Below are positions 35,798-38,539 of a stretch of DNA of 41,886 bases, piece after piece. A program made the position numbers and the translations under genes. The DNA comes from Thermoplasmata archaeon. GTDB taxonomy: Archaea; Thermoplasmatota; Thermoplasmata; Lutacidiplasmatales; UBA184. Under the pieces are notes generated by a model that did not search any database, was not told where the DNA came from, and saw only the letters and a program-made list of their open reading frames with translations. The stretch's first letter is position 1. Each line of letters opens with the position of its first letter. The DNA is taken from assembly GCA_022749845.1 (NCBI GenBank), contig JAKIWX010000005.1:1-41886 (forward strand), in the 5' to 3' direction.

Positions 35798-38539
35798 CTA
35801 AGGGCGGTCCGGGGGGGTGGGCGGGTCGCGGTACGCGCTGGGAGGATCCCCTCCCTTCGCGTTCGTTGAGCTTGACTTCGTCCGGGCGCGGCGGCGCGCC
35901 AGCAGGAACAGCACGAGGAACAGGGCCGCCACCGCCTGGCTTGCGAGGGCGATCGCCGGCCACGGGTCGGGGGAAGCGTTCGAGGAGCTCCCCTGCGTCG
36001 GGCTCGAGGCGACCGTCACGGTCCGCGCGGGGGCGACCGTAGCGACGCCTGCGGCGTCGAGGACGGCGACCTGGACCGAATGGGTGCCCGCGGTAGTGAA
36101 CGAGTAGTTGAGCTCCGAATCGGGACCGGAGGCGATCTGCTGGTTGTCGACGTGCCACGTGTACACGAACGGGGCCGTGCCGTTCACGACGCCGGCACGG
36201 AAGGTGACGACGTTGCTCGCGAGGACGCTCCCGCTCGGCGCGCTCAAAGTGAGGACCGGGGTGGACGCCACCGCAATGTTCGCCGGCGTGGCGTTGAGCA
36301 CGATGCCTCCGGAGTCGACCACCTGCAAGGCGATGACCGAGGTGCCCGGGGAGTTGAGGGTGTAGTTGAACGGGACGCTGCAGCTCTGGAGGGAGAGACC
36401 GACGCCGTCGGCGGACCAGTAGCACTGGTAGGGCGGAACCCCGCCCACCACCGCCGCGGCGAGGCTCAGGGTGATACCGATGTCGGAACCGGCGGGTGCG
36501 CCGGTGATGACGGCGACCACGGGGCCGGCGACCGTAAGCGGTGCTGCGGCCGCCCGCGCGGAGTCCCCTAGCGCGTCCGTCGCCGTCAGATTCGCGATGA
36601 AGCTTCCGGTACCCGTCGGCGTGCAACGAACGCTAGGGGCGTTCACGGGGGCGCACCCCGGGGGAAGCCCCCCCCAGCGGTAGTCCACCCACCCTCCGCC
36701 CCCCGTCACCACGCCGGTGAACTCGACCGGCGCGCCACGTTCGGTCAGGGTTCGCGAGAGTTCGATCGCCGCCGAAAGGGAGGCGCTCAGGGCGTCGGTC
36801 TGGATCGTCTCGACGTTGTACGGGCCCGGGGGGTTGTAGCCCGTGCCGACGAGGGTGTGCAGATAGCTGCCGTCCGTCCCTGCCACGAACTCGCGGAGCG
36901 AGACCGTCTTCGGCGTGCTGGAGGAGCTCGAAGTGAGCGACGTGATCACCGGCACGCCGGGGCTCGTGAGCTCCTCGGTGCCTCCGTACACGCCGTTGCC
37001 TCCGTCTAGCCGGAAGGAGAGGCTGCGTTGCGCGTGCACGAACGGCAGGCCAGCGCCGCTCGCGCTCGAGTTTACGAACTCCCGCCAGTCCTGGACGCAC
37101 GCTAGCATCTCGGTCGTGAAGTTACCGTACTCTGGATACCCGCCCCCCGTGGTACGTGTCAGCTGGAAGGTCCCGCTCAGGTCCACCGCGAACGGAAAGG
37201 CGAGCACCTGCTCGGTAGAGAGGAGCCGGCCGGCGAGCTCCACGGTCGCGTTCGTGACCGTCCGTTCGTTCATGGAGATGTTCTGCCAGCTGCCGACCTC
37301 GCTGAGGTTGCTCGAGTAGAGGCCCTGGAGCGTCAGGTTCGCGAATTCCACGCCGGCCGGGGTTGGGATGGTGCTCCCGTACCGATAGGTGTAGTTCACC
37401 TGCCGGTCGAGCCCGGCGGTGTGCACGGCTTCCCCGGAGTAGGTGGAGCGGGTGGGCGTCGCGGCGCCGGTCCCGGCGCTCGTGTTGAGCAGCAGGGTGC
37501 CGCCGATGAGCCAGCTGCTGCCGGGGGAGGTGATCCCCTCGACGGTCACCGAAAAATTGTGGGTGCCTTCGAGCAGCCCGACCAGAGCGGTGGCGTCGAA
37601 CTGCAGGGGCCGGTCGTTCGTGGTGAGCACCCCTGTCACCGGGCGCCACAGGAAGAGGTCGATCCCGCCCGTGTTGATGTACTCGAACGGAAGAATCGTG
37701 AACACCCGGGTGCCGTCCACGCTGAGGTGCAGGGCTCGATAACCGGGGTTCTGCAGGTACCAGAACTCATCCTGGGTGCCGAACCCGTACGTCCAGAGCT
37801 CCAGCGTCGCGTTGGTCACGTTGCTGGGGACCGTCTGGATCCCCCAGGCAACCGGGGTGGTCGAATGCACGTACGGAGTGCTCCAGAGCGGTAGCACCAG
37901 GTTTGCCGCCGATGGCGGGGCGGCACCGGGGTAGACGGGATAGAATGCGATACTGACGCTCTCGAGGAAGTGGCCGGTGATGTCGGCCGCGGAGAGCTGG
38001 AAGTAGAGGTTCACCGTCCCGACGAACAGTGCGGAGTACTCCGTGAGGTCGCGCAGCACCCTCCAGGTGCCGTACTCGGGGGTCGTCCCGAACAGGACGA
38101 GCACGCCGTCGATGTACGCCCGGTAGGAGGAGTCGTAGACGTCGGGAACGACCGTTCCCGTAAAGTTGAGAATGATGCGCGCCCACGGTCCGCCGCTCGG
38201 AGCGGTGAAGTTCACCTTGGCGGCGCCGGAGGATACGTTGACGGGAAAGACGATCAACGAGGGGACGGTCGCCGGCACGCTCGGGTCCGGCTCCGCCCCA
38301 ACGACGGAAACCGGAGTCGGTAGGGCGCGGGGTAGGGCTCCCCTTGGAACGTAGGTGGTGTTGAAGAAGCTCGACGGGAGGATAGAGGGTGCGGCAGGGG
38401 AGGGGACAGCCGCGGCGCCGACCGCCGAGGTCGACACGGTGGCGCCGTGCGGTGCGCCCGGGCTCGCGTGGCCGGCCGCAGGCGATACCCCTCCCAGTAG
38501 CAGCAGCGCGAGAAGCACGGCGACCGACCGGAAGTACAT
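35798..38539 (-). CDS. Cell-surface protein with PNGase A-like N-terminal region, PKD-type domains and C-terminal TM anchor
   Basis: Signal peptide 'MYFRSVAVLLALLLLGGVSPAAG'; 'SSYRAYIDGVLVLFGTTPEYGTWRVLRDLTEYSALF', 'VFTILPFEYINTGGIDLFLWRPVTGVLTTNDRPLQFDATALVGLLEGTHNFSVTVEG'; PKD-like repeats; TM 'AIALASQAVAALFLVLFLLARRRARTK'. Confidence 0.75.
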   Translation of the reverse strand: MYFRSVAVLLALLLLGGVSPAAGHASPGAPHGATVSTSAVGAAAVPSPAAPSILPSSFFNTTYVPRGALPRALPTPVSVVGAEPDPSVPATVPSLIVFPVNVSSGAAKVNFTAPSGGPWARIILNFTGTVVPDVYDSSYRAYIDGVLVLFGTTPEYGTWRVLRDLTEYSALFVGTVNLYFQLSAADITGHFLESVSIAFYPVYPGAAPPSAANLVLPLWSTPYVHSTTPVAWGIQTVPSNVTNATLELWTYGFGTQDEFWYLQNPGYRALHLSVDGTRVFTILPFEYINTGGIDLFLWRPVTGVLTTNDRPLQFDATALVGLLEGTHNFSVTVEGITSPGSSWLIGGTLLLNTSAGTGAATPTRSTYSGEAVHTAGLDRQVNYTYRYGSTIPTPAGVEFANLTLQGLYSSNLSEVGSWQNISMNERTVTNATVELAGRLLSTEQVLAFPFAVDLSGTFQLTRTTGGGYPEYGNFTTEMLACVQDWREFVNSSASGAGLPFVHAQRSLSFRLDGGNGVYGGTEELTSPGVPVITSLTSSSSSTPKTVSLREFVAGTDGSYLHTLVGTGYNPPGPYNVETIQTDALSASLSAAIELSRTLTERGAPVEFTGVVTGGGGWVDYRWGGLPPGCAPVNAPSVRCTPTGTGSFIANLTATDALGDSARAAAAPLTVAGPVVAVITGAPAGSDIGITLSLAAAVVGGVPPYQCYWSADGVGLSLQSCSVPFNYTLNSPGTSVIALQVVDSGGIVLNATPANIAVASTPVLTLSAPSGSVLASNVVTFRAGVVNGTAPFVYTWHVDNQQIASGPDSELNYSFTTAGTHSVQVAVLDAAGVATVAPARTVTVASSPTQGSSSNASPDPWPAIALASQAVAALFLVLFLLARRRARTKSSSTNAKGGDPPSAYRDPPTPPDRP

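Follow-up and report, generated by a model that had tools for sequence, protein, structure and literature searches.

A gene on the reverse strand of the window, the 41,886-nucleotide stretch of archaeal DNA analysed here, encodes a 913-residue protein that carries a peptide:N-glycanase A (PNGase A) domain between a signal-like N terminus and a membrane-anchored stalk (Table 1). The original prediction had recognised the PNGase A pattern in three motifs, followed by PKD-like domains and a membrane anchor, and all three motifs are indeed present in the reading frame. A Pfam search assigned the domain to PF12222 at 80.1 bits against a curated cut-off of 25.3 (E = 1.7e-22) and recognised two to three PKD domains in the stalk, with PF00801 matching in two stretches (E = 4.6e-10) and PKD_4 weakly at residues 760-842. 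Hydropathy marks two hydrophobic segments, the signal-like residues 1-25, and a single membrane segment at residues 861-881 that precedes the sequence RRRAR. The PNGase_A C-terminal domain (PF25156) has no sequence match in the protein and the PNGase F family (PF09112 and PF09113) none at E ≤ 1; the fold alignment to PNGase Bb, described below, does span the second beta domain.

Table 1 Features of the PNGase gene, its neighbours and related loci (positions refer to the window unless a locus label, L, is given)
Feature	Position	Strand	Basis
PNGase A-like surface protein, 913 aa	35798..38539	-	ATG start; ORF list, Pfam, orthologues
Signal peptide-like N terminus, aa 1-25	38465..38539	-	Hydropathy; inference rather than signal-peptide prediction
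PNGaseA domain (PF12222), aa 106-355, double jelly roll	37475..38224	-	Pfam, AF2 model, fold match
D136, invariant; proposed equivalent of PNGase F Asp60	38132..38134	-	Homologue alignments; Asp in 9vla
E155 (TPE motif), invariant acid	38075..38077	-	Homologue alignments, 9vla alignment
E258 (DEFWY motif), invariant; proposed equivalent of PNGase F Glu206	37766..37768	-	Homologue alignments, 9vla alignment
Second beta domain, aa 366-590	36770..37444	-	Modelled with PNGase domain, aligned with PNGase Bb
PKD/Ig-like stalk, aa 593-842	36014..36763	-	Pfam
C-terminal transmembrane anchor, aa 861-881, then RRRAR	35897..35959	-	Hydropathy
gmd, GDP-mannose 4,6-dehydratase	38607..39605	-	PF16363 E = 3.5e-124; TIGR01472 404.5 bits
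rmd-like gene (GDP-4-keto-6-deoxymannose reductase-like)	39703..40701	+	PF16363 E = 1e-45; open frame; divergent from gmd
Thermopsin-type acid protease (context)	24413..27991	+	PF05317 E = 1.3e-60
Thermopsin-PNGase A fusion, 1300 aa	L033:6516-10415	-	Thermopsin E = 5e-58, PNGaseA E = 8.5e-19
S53 protease	L033:4237-6516	-	Pro-kuma_activ E = 2e-25; pro-kumamolisin type
Canonical archaeal PNGase A, 562 aa	L071:5578-7263; L072:5178-6866	-	PF12222 E = 1e-70 to 6.8e-70

The reading frame has the marks of a real gene. Its GC content at codon position 3 is 0.88, typical of real genes in the window, and changes in the PNGase domain relative to the orthologue in SubAcS13-24 are concentrated at codon position 3 (0.46, against 0.18 and 0.12). 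Together with the Pfam match, these patterns rule out a chance or spurious GC-rich frame. Misassembly or contamination is ruled out by synteny with the isolate AcS5-34, where the genes found between about 28 and 42 kb of the window keep their order, and the assignment of the protein to archaea as a surface-anchored member of the PNGase A family is likewise supported. Identity with the SubAcS13-24 orthologue is 79% in the PNGase domain compared with 48% in the stalk (the C-terminal 323 residues); judged by this comparison, the PNGase domain is more strongly constrained than the stalk.

An AlphaFold2 model of residues 80-590 (511 residues; pLDDT 83.3, pTM 0.83) was compared with the PDB using Foldseek. 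The best match is PNGase Bb (9vla), a PF12222-type enzyme crystallised with a MUXF glycopeptide, to which the whole model aligns over 580 columns (E = 4.5e-28, TM 0.69/0.66) at 20% identity. The 14 structures that match at E ≤ 0.001 comprise only PNGases and PNGase F-like hydrolases, among them zebrafish Ngly2, PNGase F, PNGF-II, the plant/insect-glycan PNGase 7zgn and Bacteroides PNGase F-like proteins. A single-sequence phmmer search of the PDB also found 9vla (E = 3.9e-15), as did a profile built from 18 archaeal homologues (E = 6e-36), all of which match PF12222. The same profile reaches PNGase F weakly (E = 0.01-0.04, over PNGase F residues 98-192). Its match to the retron Eco8 nuclease (E = 0.008) covers 35 residues and was taken as chance. 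The protein is thus, by sequence and model, a member of the PNGase A family with the PNGase double jelly-roll fold.

Acid conservation in the homologues points to the likely active site. D136, E155 and E258 are the only invariant acids across the 18 homologues, which span two subfamilies and reach down to 24% identity, and adding two canonical archaeal PNGase A sequences to the alignment leaves all three unchanged. Each of them, as well as D257, aligns with an acid in 9vla. The original prediction had named a missing PF12222 hit and loss of the catalytic acidic residues as evidence against itself; the window protein does give the hit, and the acids are kept in it, in the 18 homologues and in 9vla. 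The essential residues of PNGase F are Asp60 and Glu206 (PMC12753239), and we propose from order, spacing and fold that D136 and E258 are their respective equivalents, since the profile alignment falls between the two PNGase F sites and includes neither. The residue following D136 is Ser137, replacing the Arg seen in PNGase F (Arg61), PNGase Bb and canonical archaeal PNGase A (FDR/YDR), and glycan recognition may differ for this reason. Zebrafish Ngly2, in which both Trp59 and Arg61 are replaced by histidines, is nonetheless active (PMC12753239), which makes Ser137 compatible with activity.

Several related proteins provide points of comparison. PNGase Bb, at 561 residues, is too short a chain to include a PKD stalk and anchor; it has YDR where the window protein has YDS, and a longer loop after its DEQWF motif. 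PNGase F and Ngly2 (PF09112 and PF09113) have the double jelly-roll fold in common with the window protein (E = 2e-9 to 2e-7) at about 14% identity, and their Asp60/Glu206 pair has plausible equivalents in it. We know of no surface stalk reported for almond PNGase A or for the bacterial PNGase H+ enzymes. These plant and bacterial proteins (the latter from Terriglobus, Dyella and Rudaea), likened here by type, are of the PNGase A type, and their characterised members act at acid pH (PMC4231336, PMC12753239). Close to the solved bacterial-type enzyme are the canonical PNGase A proteins L071 and L072 from another family of the class, which look like a separate acquisition; they have all three acids in common with the window protein, to whose domain they are 30-31% identical, and differ in lacking the PKD stalk, in their FDR motif and in a sub-threshold PF25156 match.

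PF12222 is present in all six genomes of the window's genus, in 14 of 61 relatives, in 15 of 297 genomes of the phylum and in 40 of 300 genomes of the class Thermoplasmata, so the family, whose distribution the original prediction had left to be surveyed, is not rare in these archaea. Sulfolobus acidocaldarius also has a match. Homologues in named genomes come from Thermoplasmata MAGs, many of them from acid soils (PMC9287336) and including Candidatus Lutacidiplasma silvani, from the cultured Thermogymnomonas acidicola and from one Marsarchaeota G2 MAG. The window genome most likely belongs to the family of Ca. Lutacidiplasma, acid-soil Thermoplasmata, because a genome of the window's own family (G317, L035) has the same PNGase domain as Ca. 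L. silvani (L052). A second PF12222 subfamily in the class (L026, L032, L034 and L037) has NPFDxSF and NGNDEFWY motifs with the same three acids, at 24-31% identity to the window domain; in L037, from a 99% complete genome (G091:C1), an in-frame TGA lies within the matched reading frame. In the homologues L056 and L057, a coiled-coil-like stretch before the membrane anchor takes the place of the PKD stalk.

Acid proteases accompany the PNGase domain in several relatives. The thermopsin of the window is a separate gene, 7.8 kb from the PNGase gene on the other strand. In L033, from another family of the class, a thermopsin (peptidase A5) forms the N-terminal part of a single polypeptide whose PNGaseA domain retains all three acids, and the S53 gene lies directly downstream with an overlap of a few bases. 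At a different PNGase locus in the same genus (L073), another S53 protease gene begins only a few bases after the PNGaseA gene. The L059 protein, whose start is lost at the contig end, joins PNGaseA to a part homologous to the later region of the thermopsin protein (41% over 273 residues), and PNGase genes have a thermopsin in their vicinity in L029/L044 and in Marsarchaeota L055 as well. PNGase genes fused to a protease gene or directly next to one were seen in other families of the class, but not in the window's genus. Members of the order, which is acidophilic, are reported to carry extracellular acid peptidases of the thermopsin, S53 and A4 types and to live on organic substrates, peptides included, in acid soils (PMC9287336).

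The tightest neighbours of the PNGase gene in the window's genus are instead sugar-nucleotide genes. A gap of 67 bp separates the PNGase gene from gmd, which is upstream of it and reads in the same direction; the TIGR01472 score of gmd is slightly below the cut-off of 415 bits, and the predicted adjacency to gmd and rmd is confirmed by the PF16363 matches of both genes. The linkage recurs in other genera. The order rmd-gmd-PNGase is preserved in SubAcS13-24 and AcS5-34, and gmd and/or rmd also lie within about 5 kb of the PNGase gene in L040 and L043, where both are on the other side of a divergent PNGase gene, and in L039 and L046, where gmd is 1-4 kb away. Because there is about one such gmd copy per genome, we estimate that linkage by chance would occur in roughly 1% of genomes (taking a span of 12-14 kb in a 1.8 Mb genome). 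Genomes with this linkage fall in two parts of the tree, which fits either one ancestral linkage with losses or two gains. An NDP-sugar nucleotidyltransferase adjoins the PNGase gene at three further loci of the family (L050, L052 and L086), rmlA/rmlD-like and GT2 genes lie near it in Thermogymnomonas (L058), and several PNGase loci have no sugar-nucleotide gene nearby.

Two other features of the window's gene neighbourhood may be recorded here. The rmd-like gene reads open from 39703, with its family match beginning near that point, but no ATG, GTG or TTG occurs before 39901, indicating an unusual start codon or a sequence error. On the other side, convergent with the PNGase gene and conserved in AcS5-34, positions 32620-35742 encode a 1040-residue protein in which hydrophobic segments and a long, charged, coiled-coil-like region are combined with a KaiC-type ATPase domain at the C terminus.

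The oligosaccharyltransferase STT3 occurs in 50 of the 61 relatives and is nearly universal, while PNGase A is patchy. AglB/STT3 was found in all six genomes of the window's genus by protein query, where the Pfam search had shown none, and the copy in the window genome carries the WWDYG motif. This AglB/STT3-type oligosaccharyltransferase (G000:C101, L069:1372-7752, minus strand) has a long C-terminal tail of SdrD_B/CarboxypepD_reg-like domains, and its open frames across the class run to about 2100-2250 residues. The N-glycan exoglycosidases GH38, GH92 and GH20 were not found in 11 genomes that carry PNGase A, a result that speaks against the use of released glycans as a source of sugars.

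Taken together, sequence and model make it very likely that the window protein is an active PNGase. We consider it probable, with somewhat less assurance, that it is an acid PNGase, tethered to the surface, that acts on glycoproteins together with acid proteases. As a secreted, membrane-tethered peptide:N-glycanase, it would hold its double jelly-roll domain off the cell on the PKD stalk and hydrolyse the amide bond between N-glycan and asparagine, converting Asn to Asp and releasing the whole glycan, with D136 acting alongside E258 and E155 in the roles of PNGase F Asp60 and Glu206. An acid pH optimum is suggested by analogy with the acidophilic host order (PMC9287336) and with the characterised PF12222 enzymes, which are acid enzymes, the PNGase H+ of T. 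roseus having its optimum at pH 2.6 (PMC4231336). Working at acid pH beside extracellular thermopsin and S53 proteases, the enzyme would strip glycans from glycoproteins, foreign or the cell's own, that are then digested to peptides.

The original prediction was right on the family, the archaeal origin, the anchoring and the gmd/rmd linkage; the part it suggested for the protein, in remodelling or recycling N-glycans, is still one of two roles under consideration. An active PNGase trimming, recycling or quality-controlling the cell's own N-glycosylated surface proteins would naturally be kept with sugar-nucleotide genes, and the recurrent gmd/rmd linkage, rarely expected by chance, the adjoining nucleotidyltransferase and rml-like genes, and the WWDYG-bearing AglB/STT3 of the window genome all speak for such a role, as does the biology of the Thermoplasmatales, which have no S-layer and bear heavily N-glycosylated surface filaments (PMC12448462). 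We nevertheless think it rather unlikely, for this role would sit poorly with a PNGase that is patchy where STT3 is nearly universal and with the loci devoid of sugar-nucleotide genes, and it leaves the thermopsin fusion and S53 adjacency unexplained. Glycoprotein digestion is favoured by that fusion and adjacency, by the patchy distribution and by the missing exoglycosidases. The protein might also be a relative without catalytic activity that uses the PNGase jelly-roll fold to bind glycans, as an adhesin or as a surface lectin on a stalk: it has a stalk and anchor, Ser replaces the conserved Arg beside the catalytic Asp, and carbohydrate-binding modules often have a jelly-roll fold (PMC8812541). 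We regard this as improbable, as all three acids are invariant in homologues down to the most distant, the PNGase domain is more constrained than the stalk, and fusion to a protease favours an enzyme.

More tentatively, the glycoprotein-digesting PNGase of the window could be part of a system shared by acidophilic Thermoplasmata, in which N-glycans are removed by an acid PNGase tethered to the cell surface and the peptide chain is cut by thermopsin and S53 proteases, in some species within one thermopsin-PNGase polypeptide, and the substitution of Ser for Arg tunes the enzyme to non-eukaryotic glycans; this is possible, although we would not yet call it probable.

The family, the fold and the chemistry are already known, and N-glycosylation is well studied in archaea. 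What appears to be undescribed in the literature searched is PNGase activity in archaea, the stalked membrane-anchored architecture and the thermopsin-PNGase fusion; searches of the open-licence literature returned no paper on N-glycan removal by an archaeal enzyme, nor was a characterised archaeal PNGase A member found in the literature searched. The predicted archaeal acid PNGases could yield an acid-stable deglycosylation tool for analysis. For the organisms themselves, the surface-anchored predicted acid PNGase found throughout the window's genus and the thermopsin-PNGase fusions of its relatives are candidates for glycoprotein turnover or feeding by archaea in acid soils.
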